DNA of 64,000 bases from Myxococcales bacterium (lineage in GTDB: Bacteria > Myxococcota > UBA727 > VGSZ01), in assembly GCA_023248635.1 (NCBI GenBank), contig JAHFED010000001.1:248001-312000 (forward strand), written 5' to 3'. Under the pieces are notes generated by a model. That model was not told where the DNA came from and made no database searches. It worked only from the letters and a program-made list of their open reading frames with translations. The position numbers were made by a program, and so were the translations under genes. Numbering within the stretch: the first letter of the stretch is position 1; each line of letters starts with the position of its first letter. Below, piece after piece: positions 3,386-46,688 of the stretch.

Positions 3386-5911
<2,526 letters not shown>

Positions 5912-8870: not shown

Positions 8871-9385
8871 CGTCGGGCAGAAACGGCCCCTCGAAGTCCG
8901 GTGGGTAGACGACTTCGTAACGGCATCACCCACCACCGCCACGGCCACACCGTGGTGCAGGTCGTTGCCCAGCACGGCGACGTTTTCGATGACGTCCCGG
9001 ATGCATGCCAAGGCGACGTCGAGCTCGCTGGTGAGGAGGTGAATCAGCATGAAAGGTGCTGCACCCAAGTACTCGTAGGCGTCGTCCACAATCGCCCCAT
9101 GATCCCCGATCTCGGGGAACTTCGGCCGCGGAGCGGTCTCGTACATCTCCCTCGGGGATGCTCTTCTGGGAGCTCTGGTGCAGACCTCCCCCCGCGCCGG
9201 CAGAGCCGGACGCGGGGCCCCCCACCAACTCCGCGTTCCGCGGGCGCGCTTCACGCGCACCATCCCGCAGAACATCAAGCGGACGCGGGATGAGAGCGTT
9301 CGACGAGGAGTTGGGGCAGCACGTAGCGGATGTCGAGATCCGGATTGTCGAGCCGTTCCGGATCGAGCCGGAGGAGGATCCGCAC
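8860..9385 (-). pseudogene. Interrupted small gene of unknown family
   Basis: A GTG at 9385 begins VRILLRLDPERLDNPDLDIR and ends at a TGA near 9275. About 110 bases of GC-rich, hairpin-forming DNA follow. Coding resumes in another frame as DDAYEYLGAAPFMLIHLLTS and continues through IRDVIENVAVLGNDL to VAVVGDA. One missing base then separates it from RYEVVYPPDFEGPFLPDVNP and a stop at 8860-8862. All three pieces have the codon bias of real genes and read well as one protein of about 130 residues. I therefore see a gene broken by a short insertion and a one-base deletion. It starts 3 bases after the epimerase stop codon, so it once closed that operon. Confidence 0.55.
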
Positions 9386-10314: not shown

Positions 10315-11177
10315 TGTCCTCCGAGAAAGAACAGGGGACGCACGCGTTTTTCATGGCGCTTTCGGCCACCGTCGAGGAGAGCGCGAACCTCATTGCGCAC
10401 TTCATCGACCATTTTTTCGATGGTTTCATCGTCCTCTCGTCCAGTCCCCGAAAACACCATAGGTGAGCCAAAGTGGACCGAGCAGGGTCGCGGCAACGGC
10501 AGCGGCAGACCGTAAGCCGTCAGCGGGATGTAGGGCACGCCAAAGAGCCGGCCGAGCTTCTCGAGATTCATCACCGTGGGCAGCACGTCGCCGCCGCCGA
10601 TGAAGGCCATGGGGATGATGGGGCTCTTGGTCTGCAGCGCCAGACGCACGAAGCCTGTGCCGAAGCGCACCAACGACCAGCGCTCTTTGTACAGCTTGGC
10701 GGTGCCGCGGGCACCCTCGGGAAAGACCATCAACAAGCGGTCGTCGTTGAGCAGCTGCTGCGCATGCTCGGGCAGACCGGTGAGATGGCCCAGCTTCGCC
10801 GTCCACGACGACGACACCGGCAAGGCGGACAGGAATTTCTCGGCCATGCCCTGACACAAGCGTGGCGGTTCCAGCTCGAGGAAAGTGGCGCCCACGGTGA
10901 GGAGGCCGTCGATGGCGTAGCCGCCGGAGTGGTTGCCCACGATCATGGCGCGTCCGCGGGGAGGCACGTGCTCGATCCCCAGCGCCTCGACGCGGAAGTA
11001 CGAGCGGTAGAGCCTCTTCACGATGGTAAAGAAGACCTCGAGGTGGCGCTTGCTGGTTCCGTATTTGTCATAGCCCTGGGCCGAGAAGGGGATCTCGAGG
11101 CGAGCCACCCGAGCCGCAACGTCGTCGTCGATCAGAAGGGACAAGGCATCTCCTGCGGAGCCCGCAATGTACGCCAA
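10311..11177 (-). CDS. Lysophospholipid acyltransferase family protein (PlsC-like)
   Basis: A 288-residue protein. The catalytic block NHSGGYAID replaces the usual NHxxxxD spacing. The glycerolipid-binding [10 protein letters not shown] motif, the KYGTSKRH region and the [11 protein letters not shown] block are all present. The family moves acyl groups from acyl-CoA or acyl-ACP to lysophospholipids or related acceptors at the inner membrane. It is the first gene of a coupled pair with the epimerase at 9388. The upstream gap to the kinase (11178-11261) holds a degenerate hairpin repeat. Confidence 0.86.
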
Positions 11178-11189
11178 GACGCCCGCCCG

Positions 11190-11272
11190 TCTTGAAGTTC
11201 TGCTGGTTCAAGAGGCTGGCGCGTCTGAACATCAAAACGCCAATCGTTCTCTTGGCGCTTGCTATTGGCGGG
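11190..11272. repeat. Degenerate hairpin repeat
   Basis: The sequence CTTGAAGTTCTGCTGGTTCAAG, then GGCTGGCGCGTCTGAACATCAAAAC resembles the array units at 23998 in its right half and tail (GCG-TCT-GAACATCAAAAC). A second pairing, CGCCAATCGTTCTCTTGGCG, follows. It lies between the kinase and acyltransferase genes. Confidence 0.45.
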
Positions 11273-14628: not shown

Positions 14629-15087
<459 letters not shown>

Positions 15088-18848: not shown

Positions 18849-19035
18849 AGCGTTCATTGCCTCGGGCGCTTGCGCGCCTGAAGTCTTGGTTTCAGACGCT
18901 GGCGCGTGTTGAACAGAGAAACTGCCCGGCCTGAGGGCACAGAATTTCGCGTAGACTCAAGCCCTTGCCCTGACCTTTGCCTGTTTTGCTCAAGTTGATC
19001 CTCAAGCCGTGTGTACGGCTTGTCGTGGAGCCCGG

Positions 19036-23030: not shown

Positions 23031-23984
23031 ATGAAGTGGATCAAGAAGGCGCTGGGCAAGACAGGGCGCAAGGTCGCCGAAGGCCTGGTGATGAAGGGCT
23101 ACATCGCCGCCCGTGAGGGCCGCCTCGTCGCCGCTCGACAGCATTACGCCGACGCCATCGACGCCGATGACACCCTGGCCGTCGCCTATTTCAACGCTGG
23201 ACAGGTCGAGCTCGAGCTCTTCAACAAGGCGGGCAGCGAAGCCCCCGAAGACGTCGACGACGCCCGCACGCGTCGCTTGCTCGCCGCCGCTGACCACCTG
23301 CGCAAAGGCCTCGATCGAGATCCGGGCCACGCTCCCTCGTGGCGCACATTGGCACGGGTCAGCGAACGCCAAGGGGACTACGTCGCCGCCGTCGACGCCT
23401 GGACCCAGGCCCGCGCGCGCCTCGCCGTCGCCGACCCACCCGCCGACCCCACCGAGCTCGAGGAGGCCCGCCGCGAAGCCTCCCGCTTGCAACCCTTCGC
23501 CGAGCTCGCTGCCGTCCTGCAAAAGGCCCGTGCCGCCTTGGCCACAGAGGTCGACGTCGACGCCACCGTCTTGGCCCTCAACGCGCTGCAGGCCACCTGG
23601 GAGCGCAGCCTCGTCTTCGGCGTCGCCGAACCTCCGCGCTTTTTCACGCTGGTGGGCGCCCTCGCGCGCAAGCTGGGCGACCTCGAGCAAGCCCGCACGT
23701 CCTTCGAAACCGCGATCGCGCGGGACAAGCACGACCTGGAAGCCCTGCGCGAGCTCGCCACCATCTGCCTGACCCAGGGAGACCTGAAAGCAGCGCTAGC
23801 GTCGTCGTTGGCGGCCTACCGCGCGGATCCTGTCGACGCCGGCCTGGTCTGCAACGTCGGCGTCTGCCACCTCGCGCTGGGCGAGCTCGAGCAGGCGCGC
23901 GAATTCATCGGCTTGGCTGCGGGGATGGCGCCCAAAGATCCCATCATCGTGAAAGCGGTCGCCGCCCTCGGCGCGGCGCGTTGA
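23031..23984 (+). CDS. Tetratricopeptide-repeat protein
   Basis: A 317-residue protein starting at the ATG at 23031, four bases after the preceding stop codon. At least five TPR-like helix pairs are visible: GYIAAREGRLVAARQHYADA, APSWRTLARVSERQGDYVAA, LVGALARKLGDLEQARTSFE, LEALRELATICLTQGDLKAA and NVGVCHLALGELEQAREFIG. There is no signal peptide; the N-terminus (MKWIKKALGKTGRKVAEGL) is basic and amphipathic. It probably binds the DUF4388 partner or a shared target. Confidence 0.85.
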   Translation: MKWIKKALGKTGRKVAEGLVMKGYIAAREGRLVAARQHYADAIDADDTLAVAYFNAGQVELELFNKAGSEAPEDVDDARTRRLLAAADHLRKGLDRDPGHAPSWRTLARVSERQGDYVAAVDAWTQARARLAVADPPADPTELEEARREASRLQPFAELAAVLQKARAALATEVDVDATVLALNALQATWERSLVFGVAEPPRFFTLVGALARKLGDLEQARTSFETAIARDKHDLEALRELATICLTQGDLKAALASSLAAYRADPVDAGLVCNVGVCHLALGELEQAREFIGLAAGMAPKDPIIVKAVAALGAAR

Positions 23985-23997
23985 AGTCTCGATGATT

Positions 23998-24199
23998 CAA
24001 GACGCGCCAGCGTCTTGAACATCAAAACTTCAAGACGCGCCAGCGTCTTGAACATCAAAACTTCAAGACGCGCCAGCGTCTTGAATCATCAAAACTTCAA
24101 GACGCGCCAGCGTCTTGAATCATCAAAACTTCAAGACGCGCCAGCGTCTTGAAGATCAAACTTCAAGACGCGCCAGCGCCTTGAACATCAAAACTTCAA
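23998..24199. repeat. Hairpin-repeat array, six units
   Basis: Units start at 23998, 24031, 24064, 24098, 24132 and 24164. Each has the perfect palindrome CAAGACGC-GCCA-GCGTCTTG, then AACATCAAAACTT or a close variant (AATCATCAAAACTT). The last unit has one stem change (GCGCCTTG). The array fills the space between two convergent genes (TPR gene and hydroxylase). The rest of the gap up to 24282 has no gene. It is not CRISPR, as the spacers are constant. Confidence 0.92.
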
Positions 24200-24282
24200 A
24201 GCGCGGGCGCGAGCTGAGCGCCTTGACCTGCTGTGTTGGGTCCTGTCACGACAGACTTTCTTGCTCGATGGTTGAGAGCCGA

Positions 24283-24861
24283 TCAGGCGGTGCGTGCAAG
24301 AGATGGTGAATCAGCGACGACGAAGTCAGGCAATTGATAGGTGCCCTCGAGTCCGGCGGCGATGTGGCCGTCGTGCAGCAGCCAGGGGAGCTTGGCGGCC
24401 TGGCGCGCAGGCACGCGCACGATTTCGACGCTGACGAAGGTGCCAAAGACCACGTCCCACAAGGGAGTCGAGACGCCGTGGTTCTTGCGGGGATCGGCGA
24501 AGTGGTGGTGCAGGTGGTGGCGGCGGGCCCAATGTCCATAGGCCGACCGGGGACCAGCGACGTGAATCGCCCGGTGCAAGGCCTCGTAGGTCAGCCAGCC
24601 GGCGACGATGCCGCCCACCAGCGAGAGGCCAACAACGGCACCTCCCAGGGGCACAGTGACCAGTCCGACGCCGCCCAAGACGACGGCGGCGGCCTTCAGC
24701 TTGCTCGACCAGGGCGGAAACCAGTTTACTTTGGCGTGGTGCTCGAGGTGCTCGTGCGAGGCCCGCCGGCCGAGGATGCGCTCGTGAAACACCCAACGAT
24801 GCAGTGTATATTCAAGCAGGCTCCACACAAAAGCACCCACGAGAAACAACGCCATCATCAT
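24283..24861 (-). CDS. Membrane fatty acid hydroxylase / sterol desaturase superfamily protein
   Basis: A 192-residue protein starting at the first of three ATG codons (24861), behind GGAGG. Hydrophobic helices occur at 1-20 and in the middle (AVVLGGVGLVTVPLGGAVVG, LVGGIVAGWLTYEALH). The eight-histidine di-iron motif is present as HRWVFH, HEHLEHH, HRAIHVAG and YGHWARRHHLHHHF with DPRKNHG. This fits enzymes that hydroxylate or desaturate fatty acyl chains or sterols at the membrane. Its start overlaps the stop codon of the TetR gene by four bases (ATGA), so regulator and enzyme are coupled. Confidence 0.88.
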   Translation of the reverse strand: MMMALFLVGAFVWSLLEYTLHRWVFHERILGRRASHEHLEHHAKVNWFPPWSSKLKAAAVVLGGVGLVTVPLGGAVVGLSLVGGIVAGWLTYEALHRAIHVAGPRSAYGHWARRHHLHHHFADPRKNHGVSTPLWDVVFGTFVSVEIVRVPARQAAKLPWLLHDGHIAAGLEGTYQLPDFVVADSPSLARTA

Positions 24862-26876: not shown

Positions 26877-27560
26877 TCAGGCCCCGATGGCGTGAAGCTT
26901 GTCGTTCTCGACGAAGCGCACCCGCTCCTGGGTGGAATCAAAGGCGAGGCGCACCATGGCGCGGGCGACGACGTCGACGGAGATGGGGGCCCAGCGGTGG
27001 GTCTTGCCCACCACGGAGAAGATCGCCCGGGCAACCGGCAGGGCCAGCTTCTCGCCGGGGCGTTGCTCCTTGCGCCGGCCTTCATCGTCGAGCAGGGCGG
27101 GTCGCAAGACCACCAAGGTGGGAAATCCCAGGCTCTCGATCGCTTCTTCGGCTTCGCCTTTGGTCTTGAGGTAGAAATTCCCGGACTTCGCCGAAGCCCT
27201 CGCCGACGTCAGCAAGAGGAAGCGCTGGGCGCCCTTGTCCCGCATGGCCCGTGCAAAGGCCGTGGCGGCGTCGAAGTCGACGGCGCGGAAGGCCGCTTTG
27301 CTGCCGGCCGCTTTCATGGTCGTGCCCAAGCAGCAGAAGGCGAGGGCGACGTCGTCGGGTGTGCTGCGTGCGACGGAAGACGGGCTGTCGAGGTCGACGA
27401 CGGCGGAGACGAGCTTGCCGTGTTTTTGCTGCAGCTGCCGACGGCCGATGGCCGTCACGCGCCCGACGCGGGGATGCTCGAGCAGGTGGTGCAGCACCCG
27501 GCCGCCGACGACGCCGGAGGCCCCAGCAATCACCACACTCTGCAGGTTCGGGGCGATCAT
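26877..27560 (-). CDS. NAD(P)-binding oxidoreductase, TIP30-like
   Basis: A 227-residue atypical short-chain dehydrogenase. It starts MIAPNLQSVVIAGASGVVGG with the GxxGxxG nucleotide motif, then RVTAIGRRQLQQKHGKL, AFCCLGTTMKAAGSKAAFRA and FLLLTSARASAKSGNFYLKT, where Y and K of the YxxxK motif are recast as YLKTKGEAEE, typical of the HTATIP2/TIP30-like bacterial proteins. The first codons overlap the stop of the alpha/beta hydrolase gene by four bases, so the pair is translationally coupled. The substrate is unknown. Confidence 0.84.
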   Translation of the reverse strand: MIAPNLQSVVIAGASGVVGGRVLHHLLEHPRVGRVTAIGRRQLQQKHGKLVSAVVDLDSPSSVARSTPDDVALAFCCLGTTMKAAGSKAAFRAVDFDAATAFARAMRDKGAQRFLLLTSARASAKSGNFYLKTKGEAEEAIESLGFPTLVVLRPALLDDEGRRKEQRPGEKLALPVARAIFSVVGKTHRWAPISVDVVARAMVRLAFDSTQERVRFVENDKLHAIGA

Positions 27561-28567
27561 GCTGGTTCTCCAAAGACGCCATGGCGCTGCCAGAAGGAGA
27601 GCAGGGCGTCGTGAAACAGGTCGGGGACTTCGAGGGCGGCGTAGTGCGATCCGGCTGGGAGCACCGCGAGCTCGCCGCGGGGCATGAGGGCGGCCATGCG
27701 CCTCATGGTGGACAGCGGGGTCATGCGATCATTGGCGCCAGCGACGACGACGACGGGGCTGCGGATCTCCGCCAGGGCGTCCCAGCCGTCGTGGCGCCCG
27801 AGGTGACGAAGGATGGCGACGAAGACGTCGATGTCGACGTCCTTGAAGCCTTGGGCCGCCGCGCGAAAGGTGGGCGCGTGAATGTCTGGGTGGGCCAGTC
27901 CCAAGCGCACCGCCACCAGCACGAAGAGACGGTGGTCGACGGCCGCGGCGACGGCGCGCTCGATGGGCCGGGCCACGGTGGCGACGTTGCGATCGAAGCC
28001 CGCCAGCAGGGGATCGACCAGCCGCCCCAAGCCTTTGTTGCCCAGAACATCGTCGAAGGTCCGGCCGGCGACGCCGTTGTGCAGCGCAAGAGTGATCAGC
28101 CGATCGCGCAGGATGCGGGTGGCCTCAATGAGCACTTGCACGCCCATCGACCACCCCAAGGCATGAAAGCGCTGCCAGCCCATGGCATCGGCCACAGCGA
28201 CGACGTCGCGCGCATGATCGACGACGTCGAGGGCTGCCTTGCCGCCCAAGGGACGGCCCGATCGGTGCAGGCCGCGCGTGTCGAAGCAAACGATGCGGAA
28301 AGAAGATCGGAAGCGCGCGATCACCAGCCGCCAGGTGGTGATGGTCGCTCCCAAGCCGTTGACCAGGAGCAGATTCGGCCGTCGCTCATCGGGCGCGTCG
28401 TCGACGATCTGCACGTGCAAAGGCGTGCCGTCGAAGGAGGCGACCGACCGCTGGGCCACGCCCGGGATGTCCAGGTCATCAATCACTGCGGCAGCATCGT
28501 CGTCGACCCGCCGAGGGCGCAAGCGGGGCGCTGGTGGCGCCGCAGTCGAGCCTTGCCAAGGGCTCAA
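27557..28567 (-). CDS. Alpha/beta-hydrolase
   Basis: Up to 336 residues; the start is uncertain. A TTG at 28567 opens the frame inside a hairpin repeat, and no ATG or good ribosome-binding site precedes the fold, which begins near SFDGTPLHVQIVDD. Signature parts are LLLVNGLGATITTWRL (oxyanion loop), FRIVCFDTRGLHRSGRP, the nucleophile elbow GWSMGV with Ser, a late Asp in VVVAGANDRMTPL and the catalytic His in AGSHYAAL. It looks active. Coupled to the oxidoreductase gene at 26877. Confidence 0.85.
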   Translation of the reverse strand: MSPWQGSTAAPPAPRLRPRRVDDDAAAVIDDLDIPGVAQRSVASFDGTPLHVQIVDDAPDERRPNLLLVNGLGATITTWRLVIARFRSSFRIVCFDTRGLHRSGRPLGGKAALDVVDHARDVVAVADAMGWQRFHALGWSMGVQVLIEATRILRDRLITLALHNGVAGRTFDDVLGNKGLGRLVDPLLAGFDRNVATVARPIERAVAAAVDHRLFVLVAVRLGLAHPDIHAPTFRAAAQGFKDVDIDVFVAILRHLGRHDGWDALAEIRSPVVVVAGANDRMTPLSTMRRMAALMPRGELAVLPAGSHYAALEVPDLFHDALLSFWQRHGVFGEPA

Positions 28568-28622
28568 ACCGTCGGCGTTGTGAGCCGGCCCAAGGGCTCA
28601 AACCATCGGCGTAGCGAGCCCT
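28548..28622. repeat. Hairpin repeats between divergent genes
   Basis: GAGCCTT-GCCA-AGGGCTC (28548-28565, with one G-T pair) has the same GCCA loop as the large arrays; GAGCCGGCCCAAGGGCTC (28582-28599) is a decayed copy, and both are followed by AAACCRTCGGCGT. They occupy the start region of the alpha/beta-hydrolase gene and the promoter region of the divergent transglutaminase gene. Confidence 0.6.
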
Positions 28623-28642: not shown

Positions 28643-30691
28643 ATGTGGACCCGCGCCGTCGTCGTCGTCTTTTTGCTTTCGGCCCTCTTTTCGCTGGGCT
28701 GTCCCTCGCGGCTGCGCCCCGAACGAGAACGCTTGGGCAGCTCCGAGCTGGCCGCCGCCGCCGACTTTCCCGATGCCCGAGCGGTGATCCTCCTCGATCG
28801 CACCGAAGTCACCTTTGCCCAGATGCAAAAGGCCCCGCTGCCGCTGGCCGAGGTGGTGCACACGCGCCGCATCCAGGTTCTCACCGAGGCCGGTCGCGAT
28901 CTGGCGCGGGTGCTGGTGCCCTTCGACGAACGCAGTCGCGTGTTTTCGATCCAGGGCCGCACCTACAAAAACGGGGGCAGCGAGTTCGTCGAGATGAACG
29001 AGGGCGCCATCGTCGACGTCGATCGCTTTGCCTCTGGGGTTCCCGCTGCTCGCATCTATGGCGGTCCGGGCTTTCGCATGGCCAAGGTGCCCGACGTCGA
29101 AGTCGGCGACGTCTTCGAGGTCACGACCTTGTTGCGGGTGCGCGATCCGCGCTGGCTCGAGCCCGTCGTCGTCGGCGGCGACCTGCCGCTGCTGCGGGGG
29201 GAGGTCATCATCAATGTGCAGAAGAACCTCGACGTCGACATGCGCGTCTCGAGCCAGGCCACCGTCGTCGATGTCAAACCCACGCGCATTCCCACGACGA
29301 TCAAGCTGCTCACCGAGAAGGCGGCGCTGCGCGAAGGCGAAGACCAGGGCACCCGCTACGCCTACGTCTTCGATCGCACGCCGGCGGTTTTTCCCGAGGG
29401 AGAGGCCGCCGATGGGCGCGCGCTGGCCACGCAGGTTCACCTCTTGTTGAAGTCCGGGCCAGGGGCCTTTCGCAGCATCGACGACATCGCTGCCTGGTAC
29501 CGGGAGATCGTCGGCGTCAATGAACAGCCCGATGCGGCGACGAGGGAAGAGCTCAAGCGCATCGGGTTGGGCAAGGGTTCCAAGAGCGAAAAGGTGGCCC
29601 TCATCCAGCGCTACCTGCAGGACGAGATCAAGGACGCCCCGGCATTTTCGAACTTGGCCGCGCTGCGGGCGCGCACGCCGGGCGACGTCATTCGCTTTCA
29701 GGTCGGCGATGCCAAGGATCAGGCGAGCCTCTGTCTCGCATTGCTGCGCGCCGCCGGTCTCGACGGGCTGCCTGTGCTCGTCTCGCGACACGGGAGCTTC
29801 GCCTCGATTCCCGACCTCCCGACGCCCGCACCCTTCAACCACGTCGTCATCGCGGTGCCCGCCGGGGGCAGTTACGCCTGGATCGATCCAGCGACGCCAG
29901 GCTTGCCCACGGGTCGACTGCCGGGCTTGCTGCAGGGGGCCGTCGGGGTCCTCGTCACGCCGGCAGGAGGCGAGCTCATCAACTTGCCCGAAGACGATGC
30001 GCACAAGAACACCGTCGACGTCCGGCTCGAGCTCGCGCTTGCTGCTGATGGACAGGTGACCGGCGACATCCGCGGCGTCTTGAGCGGGGTTCCGGCCGCG
30101 CGTGGCCGGGAGATCTTCGAGTTGCCCGAAGAGCAGCAGCTGTCGGCGATGAAGACCCTGCTGCTGGGCGATGCCAGCGGGGATCCAGACGCCAAGCCGG
30201 GCGTCGTCTTCAGCGATGTGTTCCGCGTCGCGGGCACCGTGCCGCGCGGCAACATCGATGAAGCGCTCAAGGTGCAGGTGCGGCTGCAACCGCTCAAGCT
30301 CAAGAACACCAACGTGGTCTTCGACGACGTCGTTGGCCGCCCGCTGGGCTTCTTGTGGCGCGAGGGCCGCCGTTCGTCCGTGTTTCTCGGCGCGCGCACC
30401 GTCTGGAAGATCCGCGTGGACCTCAAGATGCCCGAGGGCATGGGCATCGCCGAGCTGCCGGTCAGCGTCGACAAGCCCGGATCGGTGGTCAACGTCGAAG
30501 AGCGGTGGGCGGTGGCCGACGGCGTGCTGAGCTTTCAGCGCACCTTCACCTTCAACGAGCGCATCGTCCCGCCGGCCCGCTACGATGAGCTGCGCAGCCC
30601 GGTGGTGGCGTCGTGGACCCGTGCCCGCCAGATCGTGCGCGTTCAGCCCGGCGGCGACCGCGGCGCGGCCTACGGCTCCGATCAGTTCTAG
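28643..30691 (+). CDS. DUF3857/transglutaminase-like lipoprotein lacking the catalytic cysteine
   Basis: A 682-residue protein. MWTRAVVVVFLLSALFSLGC is a lipoprotein signal. Residues about 45-250 form the beta-rich DUF3857 domain (HTRRIQVLTEAGRDLA, FSIQGRTYKNGG). The transglutaminase-like core follows at about 285-420: RTPGDVIRFQVGDAKDQASL, FNHVVIAVP and YAWIDPATP. The usual GDCKD is GDAKD here, so the nucleophile Cys is Ala, while the His and Asp of the triad remain. The C-terminal third resembles the matching beta domain of DUF3858-type proteins. Probably a binding or structural role in the periplasm. The stop codon TAG lies in the end of a MITE-like element. Confidence 0.85.
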   Translation: MWTRAVVVVFLLSALFSLGCPSRLRPERERLGSSELAAAADFPDARAVILLDRTEVTFAQMQKAPLPLAEVVHTRRIQVLTEAGRDLARVLVPFDERSRVFSIQGRTYKNGGSEFVEMNEGAIVDVDRFASGVPAARIYGGPGFRMAKVPDVEVGDVFEVTTLLRVRDPRWLEPVVVGGDLPLLRGEVIINVQKNLDVDMRVSSQATVVDVKPTRIPTTIKLLTEKAALREGEDQGTRYAYVFDRTPAVFPEGEAADGRALATQVHLLLKSGPGAFRSIDDIAAWYREIVGVNEQPDAATREELKRIGLGKGSKSEKVALIQRYLQDEIKDAPAFSNLAALRARTPGDVIRFQVGDAKDQASLCLALLRAAGLDGLPVLVSRHGSFASIPDLPTPAPFNHVVIAVPAGGSYAWIDPATPGLPTGRLPGLLQGAVGVLVTPAGGELINLPEDDAHKNTVDVRLELALAADGQVTGDIRGVLSGVPAARGREIFELPEEQQLSAMKTLLLGDASGDPDAKPGVVFSDVFRVAGTVPRGNIDEALKVQVRLQPLKLKNTNVVFDDVVGRPLGFLWREGRRSSVFLGARTVWKIRVDLKMPEGMGIAELPVSVDKPGSVVNVEERWAVADGVLSFQRTFTFNERIVPPARYDELRSPVVASWTRARQIVRVQPGGDRGAAYGSDQF

Positions 30692-38002: not shown

Positions 38003-39487
38003 ATGGAAGAGACCTTGAGGGTGCGGGTCATCGGTGGCGGGCTGGCGGGCTGTGAGGCTGCTTGGCAACTCGCGCAGGCTGGGGTCGGCGTCACTCTTCA
38101 CGAGCAGAAGCCGGAGAAGCGCACGCCGGCGCAGACCTCGGACCGCCTCGCTGAGCTGGTGTGCAGCAACTCCTTTCGCTCGTCGAACGTCGACAACGCC
38201 GTGGGGCTGCTCAAAGAGGAGATGAGGCGCGCGGGCTCTTTCCTCATGGCCTGCGCCGAAGTCGCCAAAGTCCCCGCCGGCGACGCCTTGGCCGTGGATC
38301 GCGTCATCTTCGCCGACGTCGTCGAAACGCGGCTGCGCGCCCATCCCCTCATCAGCCTGGTGCCCGGCGAAGTGCAGTGCCTGCCCGACGACGACGTCAC
38401 CACTCTGGTTGCCACGGGGCCCCTCACGTCGGAGGCGCTGGCCAAAGACATCGCGCGCTTGTGTGGCCAAGAAAGGCTGGCCTTCTACGACGCCATCGCC
38501 CCCATCGTGGACGCCGAATCCATCACCACCGACGACGAAGACCCCCAGGGCGGGGCCTATTTCAAATCCCGCTGGAACAAGGGAGATTCAGCAGACTATT
38601 TGAACTGTCCAATGACGCCAGAAGAATACGACGTCTTCTACGACGCCTTGCGCGCCGCCGATCTGGCCACCGCCCATGAATTCGAAGAGCTGCACTACTT
38701 CGACGGCTGCTTGCCCATCGAGGTCATGGCCGAACGCGGCAAGGATACGTTGCGCTTTGGTCCCATGAAGCCGGTGGGACTCTTTCACCCTGTGACCAAC
38801 CGGCGCGCCCACGCGGTATTGCAGCTGCGCAAAGAGGACATCCATGGCTCATCCTACAATCTGGTTGGATGCCAGACCCGGATGAAGCAGAGAGCGCAGC
38901 GCGACGTCTTTGCTCTCATCCCCGCGCTCAAGAACGTGCGCTTCTTGCGCTATGGCGCCATCCACCGGAACACCTACGTCGACGCTCCCACCGTGCTCGA
39001 TGCGCAGGGGCGCTTGAAGGCCCGACCGAGCGTCTTTTTCGCCGGCCAGATCACCGGCGTCGAGGGCTACGTCGAATCCACCGCCTCGGGCTTGCTGACG
39101 GCCCTGGTGCTCATCGATCAGCTGCAAGGACGCGCCCTCGACGTCCCGCCGCCGACGACGGCGCTGGGTGGGCTGTGGCGCCACTGCCGGGGCGTGTTGC
39201 GGGCCGCGGGCAACACCGCGTTTTCGCCGAGCAATGTGATCTGGTCGATGATGCCCCCCGTCGACGCCGTCCCCGTGATCAACGCCCGGGGAAAAAAGCA
39301 GAAGCCCGACAAGGCCGGGCGCAAGAAGCAGGCGTCAGAACGCGCGCTGATCGATCTCGACCAATGGCTGGGCCGCCGTCGACAAGAGGGGCGCTTTGTC
39401 GGCGCGATCACCAAAGTGCTGGTCGCTGCGCCCGAGGTGACTACCACAGGAGCAGCAACGTCGTCGGCGACGACAGGAGGTTCGTGA
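38003..39487 (+). CDS. trmFO: Methylenetetrahydrofolate-tRNA-(uracil-5-)-methyltransferase
   Basis: A 494-residue enzyme that makes m5U54 in tRNA using folate and FAD. The FAD-binding start is RVRVIGGGLAGCEAAWQLAQ. Further landmarks are ELVCSNSFRSSNVDNAVGLL, CPMTPEEYDVFYDALR, FEELHYFDGCLPIEVMAERG, LRFGPMKPVGL, YNLVGCQTRMK and FFAGQITGVEGYVESTASGL. The length exceeds the usual 440 because of a Lys-rich C-terminal extension (KKQKPDKAGRKKQ). It is divergent from dprA, with 172 bases between starts, and is coupled to the next gene (TGATG). Confidence 0.95.
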   Translation: MEETLRVRVIGGGLAGCEAAWQLAQAGVGVTLHEQKPEKRTPAQTSDRLAELVCSNSFRSSNVDNAVGLLKEEMRRAGSFLMACAEVAKVPAGDALAVDRVIFADVVETRLRAHPLISLVPGEVQCLPDDDVTTLVATGPLTSEALAKDIARLCGQERLAFYDAIAPIVDAESITTDDEDPQGGAYFKSRWNKGDSADYLNCPMTPEEYDVFYDALRAADLATAHEFEELHYFDGCLPIEVMAERGKDTLRFGPMKPVGLFHPVTNRRAHAVLQLRKEDIHGSSYNLVGCQTRMKQRAQRDVFALIPALKNVRFLRYGAIHRNTYVDAPTVLDAQGRLKARPSVFFAGQITGVEGYVESTASGLLTALVLIDQLQGRALDVPPPTTALGGLWRHCRGVLRAAGNTAFSPSNVIWSMMPPVDAVPVINARGKKQKPDKAGRKKQASERALIDLDQWLGRRRQEGRFVGAITKVLVAAPEVTTTGAATSSATTGGS

Positions 39488-39735
39488 TGGGCATTCTCGC
39501 GTGGATCATCTTTGGCTTCTTCGCGGGTTTGGTGGCGCGGGCGATCACCCCGGGCAACCAGCGCATGGGCTTCATCAACACCACGCTGCTCGGCGTCGCG
39601 GGCTCGTTCACGGGCGGCACCATCGCCAACCTGCTCGCGGGCCATCCCTTCCAGTCCCTCGAATCGGCGGGCTTCATCGGCAGCGTCATCGGCGCCATCG
39701 TCTTGATGTTCGTCGTCCGTCTCGTGCGTCGCTGA
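39487..39735 (+). CDS. GlsB/YeaQ/YmgE-family membrane protein
   Basis: An 82-residue protein whose ATG shares a base with the trmFO stop codon. The sequence MGILAWIIFGFFAGLVARAI, GSFTGGTIANLL and GFIGSVIGAIVLMFVVRLVR shows three short glycine-rich helices, as in the transglycosylase-associated (Tag) / GlsB family of small stress membrane proteins. The function is not established. A four-unit hairpin repeat array starts one base after the stop codon. Confidence 0.9.
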   Translation: MGILAWIIFGFFAGLVARAITPGNQRMGFINTTLLGVAGSFTGGTIANLLAGHPFQSLESAGFIGSVIGAIVLMFVVRLVRR

Positions 39736-39864
39736 TTTGAGCCGTGCCAACGGCGCAAAGCAGGAAGCCCTTTGCGCCGTGCCAACGGCGCAAAGCAGGA
39801 AGCCCTTTGCGCCGTGCCAACGGCGCAAAGCAGGAAGCACTTTGAGCCGTGCCAACGGCTCAAA
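39736..39864. repeat. Hairpin-repeat array with covarying stems, four units
   Basis: Units are TTTGAGCCGT-GCCA-ACGGCGCAAA, two of TTTGCGCCGT-GCCA-ACGGCGCAAA, and TTTGAGCCGT-GCCA-ACGGCTCAAA, separated by GCAGGAAGCCC or a near copy. The change A-T for C-G in the fifth stem pair is compensated in the last unit but not the first. The array lies between convergent genes. Confidence 0.88.
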
Positions 39865-39901: not shown

Positions 39902-40645
39902 TCAGGAGGCCTGAGCGGCCCGGATCACAGCGACAGCGCCGTCGACGTCGACGACGCTGGTGTCGATGTGCAATTCGGCCTGGGCATAGAGAGGGGCGCG
40001 GGCGTTCCAGAGCGCGTCGAGCTCGGCGCGGGCGCGGGAACGGCTGGCCATCGGCCTCTCATCGCCTTGGGCCCGCACGCGATCCCAGTGTTCCTGGGGA
40101 GTGGCCTTCAACCACACCGTCAACGCGCGCGCCTTCAGCAGGGCCCAAGTCTCGGGCCAGGTGACCAAGCCACCGCCCACAGCGACGACGACGCCCCCGT
40201 CGACGCCGGCGCCAGCGACGACGTCGGCCAGCACGCGCGCTTCGAGGGTGCGCACATGCGGTTCGCCGTGCAGCTCGAACAAGGCCTGCAGCGAGAGCCC
40301 GCTTTCGCGTTCGATGAGCCGATCGAGCTCGACGAAAGCCCAGCCGGCGTCGTCGGCCAGGCGTTTGCCGACAGTGGACTTCCCGGCACCGCGCAGTCCC
40401 AGCAGCGCCACCGGTCGCTTTCTCCCCGCCGGGCGCAGCAGCTCGATGACGTCGACGCCGAGGGCCGTGGCCAGTTCCTGCAGTGAGGCCAGCGTCGGGT
40501 TGGCGGCGTCGGCTTCGATGGCAGCAAGGGATCGCAACGACAGTCCGCTGCGTTGGGCCAGATCGCGCACGGTGAAACCACCAGCGGCCCGGAGCGCGCG
40601 CGTCCGACGTCCAAGCAGGGCATTGAGCGGGGTCTTCGTTGTCAC
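39902..40645 (-). CDS. Helix-turn-helix regulator fused to a shikimate-kinase-like domain (BzdR/BoxR type)
   Basis: A 247-residue protein from GTG 40645; a start at 40708 cannot be excluded. Residues about 5-70 are an XRE-type HTH (RALRAAGGFTVRDLAQRSGL, SLRSLAAIEADAANPTLASL). Residues about 75-245 resemble shikimate kinase: LLGLRGAGKSTVGKRLADDA (Walker A), FVELDRLIERESGLS, VVAVGGGLVTWPE and RAQGDERPMASRSRARAELD. This layout is that of BzdR and BoxR, repressors of anaerobic or box-pathway benzoate degradation that bind benzoyl-CoA with this domain. No such degradation genes lie nearby. Confidence 0.88.
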   Translation of the reverse strand: MTTKTPLNALLGRRTRALRAAGGFTVRDLAQRSGLSLRSLAAIEADAANPTLASLQELATALGVDVIELLRPAGRKRPVALLGLRGAGKSTVGKRLADDAGWAFVELDRLIERESGLSLQALFELHGEPHVRTLEARVLADVVAGAGVDGGVVVAVGGGLVTWPETWALLKARALTVWLKATPQEHWDRVRAQGDERPMASRSRARAELDALWNARAPLYAQAELHIDTSVVDVDGAVAVIRAAQAS

Positions 40646-44618: not shown

Positions 44619-45128
44619 ATGAAGCGTCGAACCCTCTTGTCTCTGTCCATCCTCTTGGTGCCGGCTCTCGCCGCCTGCGCCGCCGCCGCGGAGCCTGTCA
44701 ACGGAGCTCGCGTGAAACGTGAAATCGAAAAGACGCCAGAGCAGTGGAAGAAACAGCTCTCCCCTGAGGCCTACAACGTACTCTTTGAAAAGGGCACGGA
44801 ACGCGCGTTTTCTGGAAAGTACTGGAACGAGCACCGCGACGGCGTCTACGCCTGCGCCGCCTGCGCCTTGCTGCTCTTTTCATCCGCTGACAAGTTTGAG
44901 TCCGGCACGGGATGGCCCAGCTTCACCCGCCCCCTCGACGAGAAGGCGACGGAGATCGTCAAGGACATCTCCTACGGCATGGTGCGCGAAGAAGTGGTGT
45001 GTCGGCGCTGCGGGGGCCACCTCGGCCACGTCTTCGACGACGGCCCCAAGCCGACGGGCAAACGTTATTGTATGAACTCCGTTTCGCTCGCCTTTACCCC
45101 AAAGCTGGAGGCGGTGGCGAAACCCTAG
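44619..45128 (+). CDS. msrB: Peptide methionine-R-sulfoxide reductase, lipoprotein form
   Basis: A 169-residue protein from ATG 44619. The leader MKRRTLLSLSILLVPALAAC is a lipoprotein signal, so the enzyme should be exported. The MsrB domain shows EKGTERAFSGKYWNEHRDGV, ESGTGWPSFTRPL, VVCRRCGGHLGHVFDDGPKP and RYCMNSVSL with the catalytic Cys. Zinc ligands CAAC and CRRC are in place, although CAAC is followed by ALLLF instead of the usual GxPLF. It repairs R-sulfoxides of methionine. The 219 bases upstream hold no gene. Confidence 0.93.
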   Translation: MKRRTLLSLSILLVPALAACAAAAEPVNGARVKREIEKTPEQWKKQLSPEAYNVLFEKGTERAFSGKYWNEHRDGVYACAACALLLFSSADKFESGTGWPSFTRPLDEKATEIVKDISYGMVREEVVCRRCGGHLGHVFDDGPKPTGKRYCMNSVSLAFTPKLEAVAKP

Positions 45129-45133
45129 GCCTC

Positions 45134-45264
45134 AAGACGCGCCAGCGTCTTGAACATCCAAGCTTCAAGACGCGCCAGCGTCTTGAACATCCAAGCTTCA
45201 AGACGCGCCAGCGTCTTGAACATCCAAGCTTCAAGACGCGCCAGCGTCTTGAACATCCGAACTT
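45134..45264. repeat. Hairpin-repeat array, four units
   Basis: Four exact copies of CAAGACGC-GCCA-GCGTCTTG-AACATCCAAGCTT start at 45134, 45167, 45199 and 45232 with a period of 33; the last tail reads CCGAACTTC. It sits between the convergent msrB gene and the gene at 45264. Compared with the array at 23998 the palindromes are identical but the tail differs (CCAAGCTT instead of CAAAACTT). Confidence 0.92.
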
Positions 45265-45746
45265 CAAACCATCGGAAAACCTGGCAGCCCGCGCGGCGGC
45301 GGCTCTTCGCCCAAAAGGCGGGCGGCCTCTTCTTCGGCGCAGTAGTCCCGACGTTCCCCACGCACGAAGACGACGTGGTCGCCGAGGGTCTCCCCTTGCC
45401 AATCCAAGGGGGCGGGGCGGCGTTCGTCGGCCGCAAGAGCGAGCAGCAGTGCGTCGGCGGCGTCGATGGCTGCGGCGAGCGGTCCAGCCAGGCCGCTCCC
45501 GGGCCCGCGGGCAAAGACAAAGAGCTCATGGGCCCGGGTCGGGGTGCCGACGACGACGACGACGGCTGCTGCTTTGGATCCGGTGTGGGCGCGGAGATCG
45601 AGGTCCGAACCGTGGCGTGCGCGCCAGGTGGAGCGGAGCTCGTTGGTGATCGCGGGCTCGACCGGGTAGGCGCACTCGGAGAGATCGGGTGGCCGCCGCG
45701 GAGATTCCTGGACCATGGCAGAGATCTCTACCGGAACGGAAATCAT
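45264..45746 (-). CDS. Unknown protein divergent from the RecA-like gene
   Basis: A 160-residue protein from the ATG at 45746 (a second ATG at 45716 is possible). It has no signal peptide. The middle has a hydrophobic strand and loop (KAAAVVVVVGTPTRAHELFV), then GLAGPLAAAIDAADALLLAL and a C-terminal segment DYCAEEEAARLLGEEPPPRG. No family is recognised. Its 3' end meets the repeat array and its start lies 81 bases from that of the RecA-like gene, so both could share a control region. Confidence 0.6.
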   Translation of the reverse strand: MISVPVEISAMVQESPRRPPDLSECAYPVEPAITNELRSTWRARHGSDLDLRAHTGSKAAAVVVVVGTPTRAHELFVFARGPGSGLAGPLAAAIDAADALLLALAADERRPAPLDWQGETLGDHVVFVRGERRDYCAEEEAARLLGEEPPPRGLPGFPMV

Positions 45747-46607: not shown

Positions 46608-46688
46608 TGCTCAAAGTTCAGCCGGCGGCGCGTCTGATGGTTGAAGCTCCGATGGTTCAATACGCTGGCGCGTCGTGAACGGCTGAGC

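Follow-up and report, generated by a model that had tools for sequence, protein, structure and literature searches.

The hairpin repeats of the window, i.e., the whole stretch of 64,000 nucleotides analyzed here (G000:C9:248001-312000; the genome, 6.53 Mb on 135 contigs, is of Myxococcota type judging by its relatives), probably belong to a non-autonomous palindromic repeat family of REP/RPE-like character, with a copied unit of approximately 33-35 bp that spreads via its folded form. Because copies were found in spacers, in genes, and within another transposable element, we regard the family as a self-spreading repeat and not as a gene-end terminator.

The first-pass annotation had listed arrays at 23998, 39736, and 45134 as well as single copies at 5876 and 28548, with stems of 7-8 bp. 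The stems measured 10 bp, flanking a 4-base loop in a 24-bp hairpin (TTCAAGACGC-GCCA-GCGTCTTGAA for the A type). While the arrays and the unit at 5876 were recovered, the supposed single copy at 28548 comprises two B2 units, both decayed, and three further sites (11173-11230, 18890-18913, and 46656-46679) had been missed. The features of the window are as follows:

5874-5897, + strand: lone unit, a variant of A (CTCGAGACGC-GACA-GCGTCTCGAA), whose linker is of the A type (CATCAGTAC) and whose core is TTCGA; co-directional neighbors.
11173-11230, - strand: two decayed A units with 5 and 4 mismatches; co-directional neighbors.
18890-18913, - strand: lone A unit with 3 mismatches; co-directional neighbors.
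23996-24185, + strand: A-type array of six 24-bp hairpins, five perfect and the last with 1 mismatch; linkers CATCAAAAC / TCATCAAAAC / GATCAAAC; on its 3' side a core-like TTCAA, then a strongly decayed unit (24195-24218); convergent flanking genes 23031-23984 (+, TPR) and 24283-24861 (-, fatty acid hydroxylase).
28545-28568 and 28579-28602, + strand: two decayed B2 units between the divergent genes 27557-28486 (-) and 28643-30691 (+).
39736-39864, + strand: B-type array of 4 units with a 35-bp period and linker GCAGGAAGCMC, in the order B2-left/B1-right hybrid, two B1 (TTTGCGCCGT-GCCA-ACGGCGCAAA), one B2 (TTTGAGCCGT-GCCA-ACGGCTCAAA); it abuts the stop of 39487-39735 (+) and is followed by 39902-40570 (-, HTH-shikimate kinase).
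45131-45253, + strand: A-type array of four units with linker CATCCAAGC and a 33-bp period, between an msrB-domain gene at 44619-45128 (+) and 45264-45716 (-).
46656-46679, - strand: lone A unit with 2 mismatches; convergent neighbors.

In the whole 6.53-Mb genome, near-copies at up to 3 mismatches numbered 459 for the A hairpin (TTCAAGACGC-GCCA) and 327 for the B hairpin (TTTGMGCCGT-GCCA), compared to 0 genome-wide matches for a reversed control pattern at the same threshold. The copies are therefore not a chance product, and the hairpin family proposed from the window, whose loop hardly varies (GCCA, once GACA there), indeed comprises hundreds of copies. For a detailed survey, 1.97 Mb of the genome were covered (~30%, in stretches partly picked by contigs with matches), with genes called by a codon-usage caller made for this analysis (which gave a coding fraction of 0.88 for the first sample). 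Allowing up to 6 mismatches, the survey yielded 605 hairpin copies, which form 251 clusters; its first 1.63 Mb accounted for 529 copies and 220 clusters, of which 104 have at least 2 units. In this 1.63-Mb sample, GCCA/TGGC was the loop of 231 of the 479 hairpins with stems of at least 9 bp, the runner-up loop occurring 22 times. By family, the GCCA loop was present in 163/205 A, 172/198 B, and 61/69 C copies, and it is common to all main stems (A, TTCAAGACGC; B1, TTTGCGCCGT; B2, TTTGAGCCGT; C, TTCATCGCC; D, TTCAAACCGC).

The repeat unit consists of the 24-bp hairpin and a linker of 9-11 bp, which is specific to the family (CATCNAAAC in A, GCAGGAAGCAC or CATCGGCAC in B, CTGTAGACA in C), giving 33-35 bp in total. 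Units follow each other head to tail at a spacing of 33/34 (A), 33-35 (B), or 33/63 bp (C), the 63-bp period arising where C alternates with another hairpin, E (AATTCACCGACACGCGAAGCGCTGTCGGTGAATTC), as it often does. Some arrays hold units of more than one family, and unit similarity is 0.89 within arrays vs 0.79 between them. The arrays are not CRISPR arrays, as their intervals are conserved 9-11-mers common to several arrays instead of unique spacers, and a search of Rfam gave no match. Hairpin E has the core GCGAAGC, a known DNA mini-hairpin of unusual stability; the 63-bp C/E arrays are exemplified by locus L141 (G000:C11:53214), and within genes such units translate in-frame as FTDSASRVGELSTGSSPGGDE repeats.

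The first-pass annotation had read paired stem changes as a sign of selection on a folded RNA or a cruciform. Across subfamilies, such changes are well supported: 75 cells were changed on both sides vs 23.6 in shuffles, with 0/500 shuffles as high, and 89% of cells were paired compared to 67% in shuffles. Inside subfamilies, changes were mostly one-sided. Counted over distinct sequences, compensated changes showed no excess over shuffles within B1 (9 vs 7.4 expected) and B2 (6 vs 5.1), and a marginal one within A (18 vs a shuffle mean of 9.3 and a maximum of 18). B1 and B2 are one compensated pair apart, and arrays contain hybrids that resemble B1 x B2 recombinants, among them the unit at the start of the 39736 array. 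Since the covariation lies mostly between a few amplified subfamilies and little of it within them, it fits the amplification of a few well-paired source units whose copies then decayed, not per-locus selection on pairing. As a caution, covariation among dispersed hairpins need not imply a functional RNA at every locus.

Evidence for mobility comes from hairpin units present in-frame inside coding genes. An mlaE-like gene (C102:67978-68592) encodes 11 additional residues at the unit compared to its homologues in both congeners, and a hybrid histidine kinase gene (C41:37434-40916) likewise encodes 11 additional residues compared to the homologue in genome G015 and a paralogue in its own genome. 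Removing the 33-mer (TTCAGGACGCGCCAGCGTCTTGAACCTCAACAC or ATCAAGCCGCGCCAGCGGCTTGAACATCAAAAC) in silico from the mlaE and histidine kinase genes left an open frame of homologue length. For the mlaE-like protein, no match to solved structures was found. A lytic transglycosylase gene carries a C unit as well, with poor alignment across the unit region.

Furthermore, units have entered MITEs. For a MITE of ~213 bp, we found dozens of empty copies and one filled copy (C18:71175), which has a 33-bp insertion with the target variant AACATCAAG kept on both sides. In a second MITE type, C11:9835, C18:55251, and C59:26043 are filled with an A unit at the equivalent position compared to six empty matches; these three may descend from one insertion. 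The filled copies, 4 in all, share the position of the insertion and its length of exactly 33 bp, and 8-9 bases (AACATCAAG or AACTTCAA) are common to the MITE targets and the unit junction. At their ends, 46/71 A, 41/44 C, and 13/42 B arrays repeat a 5-bp core (TTCAA in A, ATTC(A) in C), against a null of 3-5%. Direct cores thus border most A and C arrays, but targeting is not strict, since the duplicated core is missing from several of the single copies, among them both coding insertions. With a defined unit, subfamilies under one loop, and filled and empty sites precise to the nucleotide, this genome offers a clean case for the spread of such repeats.

In the mechanism that we propose, single units would land at new sites, often with the 5-bp core on both sides, and each insertion would restore the inter-unit junction; because the junction is recreated every time, arrays could grow head to tail, and they would afterwards be homogenized locally. 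Copying would require a perfect stem and the loop, while a landed copy may lose its pairing. The folded strand would be the substrate and the GCCA loop a candidate recognition tag, with the repeat presumably serving no host function. Probably, the folded single strand is handled either by an enzyme acting on ssDNA hairpins or by template switching during replication. Its recognition is suggested by a loop that stays constant while the stems are interchangeable, similar to some TnpAREP enzymes, which recognize certain perfect palindromes partly via the loop (PMC8266576). More tentatively, and with considerable doubt, the repeats may point to a RAYT-independent mobility system that reads the constant GCCA tetraloop on ssDNA hairpins, tolerates varied paired stems, and adds 33-35-bp units serially beside a short core, resulting in head-to-tail arrays and in-frame protein inserts.

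RAYT is absent from this genome (see below), and enzyme-free spread by template switching stays a real rival, which we consider possible if somewhat unlikely. Here, the hairpins would provoke slippage or template switching at short shared sequences, forming minisatellite-like arrays from which units jump by microhomology. The bases shared between MITE targets and unit junction and the local homogenization of arrays are consistent with this process, and templated correction could alter both arms together. However, it accounts poorly for hundreds of scattered insertions with near-identical unit ends, for the constancy of the loop, on which template switching would not depend, and for two coding targets without a core, and the orientation relative to the replication strand is even (58 vs 57 clusters, on contigs with weak GC skew). 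The same lack of orientation bias speaks against chromosome-organizing binding sites, maintained for a nucleoid protein or a gyrase-like factor as proposed for BIMEs. Although scatter across the genome, a mostly intergenic location, and regular 33-35-bp spacing would suit that role, the stems, which a duplex binder would read, vary between subfamilies while the loop is constant, congeners lack comparable arrays, and units also lie within genes, so that we hold it to be very improbable.

The role in transcription favored by the first-pass annotation, in which hairpins at convergent gene ends halt the polymerase or block 3' exonucleases, was suggested by the three arrays of the window, all of which do lie between convergent genes. 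The hairpins are predicted to fold stably (-14 to -20 kcal/mol), A hairpins on the minus strand precede GTTTTGATG, and terminator-like matches at the first array number 5 vs 0.7 in shuffles. However, even within the window the units at 5874 and 18890 lie between co-directional and the pair at 28545 between divergent genes. Across the 1.97 Mb, the 193 clusters with a good copy comprised 35 convergent, 98 co-directional, 34 divergent, and 19 genic ones; a further 7 lay at sequence ends. Convergent spacers accounted for 35 of the 167 intergenic clusters (21%), not significantly more than the 17% expected by intergenic length (p=0.15), and divergent spacers were mildly under-occupied (p=0.02). Orientation was even, at 45 sense and 45 antisense (16 and 23 for family A alone), and there was no clear stop preference (54 on the stop side vs 43 on the start side). 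Furthermore, B and C linkers lack a T run on either strand, A has a short one only in the antisense reading, and the combination of hairpin and T run oriented with the gene, as in an intrinsic terminator, was not found. Together with units inside coding genes and pairing that is not upheld by compensation within B1 and B2, this makes a terminator or mRNA-end function improbable. Among spacers of 60 bp or more, 29% of convergent vs 18% of co-directional ones were occupied (p=0.02), a comparison in which the array itself lengthens its spacer; this mild excess leaves scope for some locational selection. The earlier interpretation is thus supported in part, namely for the paired stem changes and the resemblance to REPs, but not for the bias to gene ends.

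It is a different repeat, the ~213-bp MITE, that favors convergent ends: among its 46 paired copies in the surveyed 1.97 Mb, 30 have convergent genes on their two sides (p=3e-13), and 25 have an edge within 6 bp of a neighboring gene's stop codon. This element, with a copy in the window at 9103-9291 (+), consists of several hairpins with inner ends TCCCCGATC and GCGGGA and has a TNA target duplication (TGA/TCA/TAA); full-length copies were seen in G000 alone. The second MITE type, which is related to the first and has the right end ...TTCAACTGGACTTGGGAT, occurs in tandem around G000:C9 336,000.

REPs are palindromes of 20-40 bp that occur in hundreds of copies, mostly intergenic, with complementary stem changes among subfamilies, few loop types, and occasional in-frame genic copies (PMC3733652, PMC8266576). 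The present family shares these traits, including the high copy number of a 24-bp hairpin and the extragenic location (167 intergenic vs 19 genic clusters), so that its description as REP-like held as to family resemblance, but not as to a role at gene ends. Unlike REPs, its hairpins lack the GTAG/CGTC tag at the foot, which is absent from the A and B flank profiles, while C has GTAG only inside the 3' linker. A search for the RAYT gene (TnpAREP, PF01797), which the first-pass annotation had recommended, gave 0 matches in G000, a 96.7% complete assembly, whereas control genomes gave matches. Arrays are mainly head to tail, with a single orientation in 77 of the 104 multi-unit clusters, instead of the inverted pairs of BIMEs and REPINs, and gene 3' ends are not preferred. 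CGTC REPs, too, have been reported without a dedicated transposase, and the question of how palindromic repeats spread without one has been posed for them (PMC3733652).

The in-frame units in the mlaE-like, histidine kinase, and other genes recall the Rickettsia palindromic elements, which are found in-frame in unrelated protein genes (PMC10969869, PMC3733652). However, the classical RPEs measure ~150 bp, whereas one unit of the present family spans 33 bp (11 codons); its copies are mostly intergenic and tandem, and the phylum is a different one. The family therefore resembles REPs and RPEs in behavior, but departs from REPs and BIMEs in tag, RAYT, and orientation and from RPEs in size. Palindromes of Volvox organelles, likewise described as selfish DNA, have a preferred loop (TAAA/TTTA) with variable stems and are nested; they are organellar, AT-rich in their mitochondrial copies, and the parts of that report consulted describe no regular 33-35-bp tandem unit (PMC2670323). 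Like TNA-duplicating MITEs, inside which units even occur, the repeats are short, non-autonomous, and numerous; in contrast to MITEs, the only terminal inverted repeats of a unit are its own stem, and target duplication is inconsistent.

The A hairpin had 0 near-copies in two congeners, and a covariance model gave at least 208 matches in G000, where only part of the first-look candidates was scored, vs 0-3 in 18 relatives. A generic search for tandem CGCCAG across 195 genomes of the phylum gave 133 matches in G000 and at most 28 in any other; those inspected resembled repeats within coding sequence or chance hits in scattered places. No exact A palindrome was found in GTDB contigs, a set that may leave out the genome itself, no exact A, B, or C hairpins in viral contigs, and no copy of the 211-bp array in plasmids or phages. 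At orthologous gene ends in a congener, spacers are too diverged to act as empty sites. In the same-genus genome G002, an unrelated 13-bp minisatellite (ACGCGCTGTGGTC x 14.6; L143, 2235-2424) lies 3' of the HTH-shikimate kinase gene and so occupies the same gene end as the B array of the window. The window itself also contains a 12-bp tandem repeat at 14938-15080 (GAAGGTGAGGGT x 12), and similar GAAGGC-type repeats recur in the contig.
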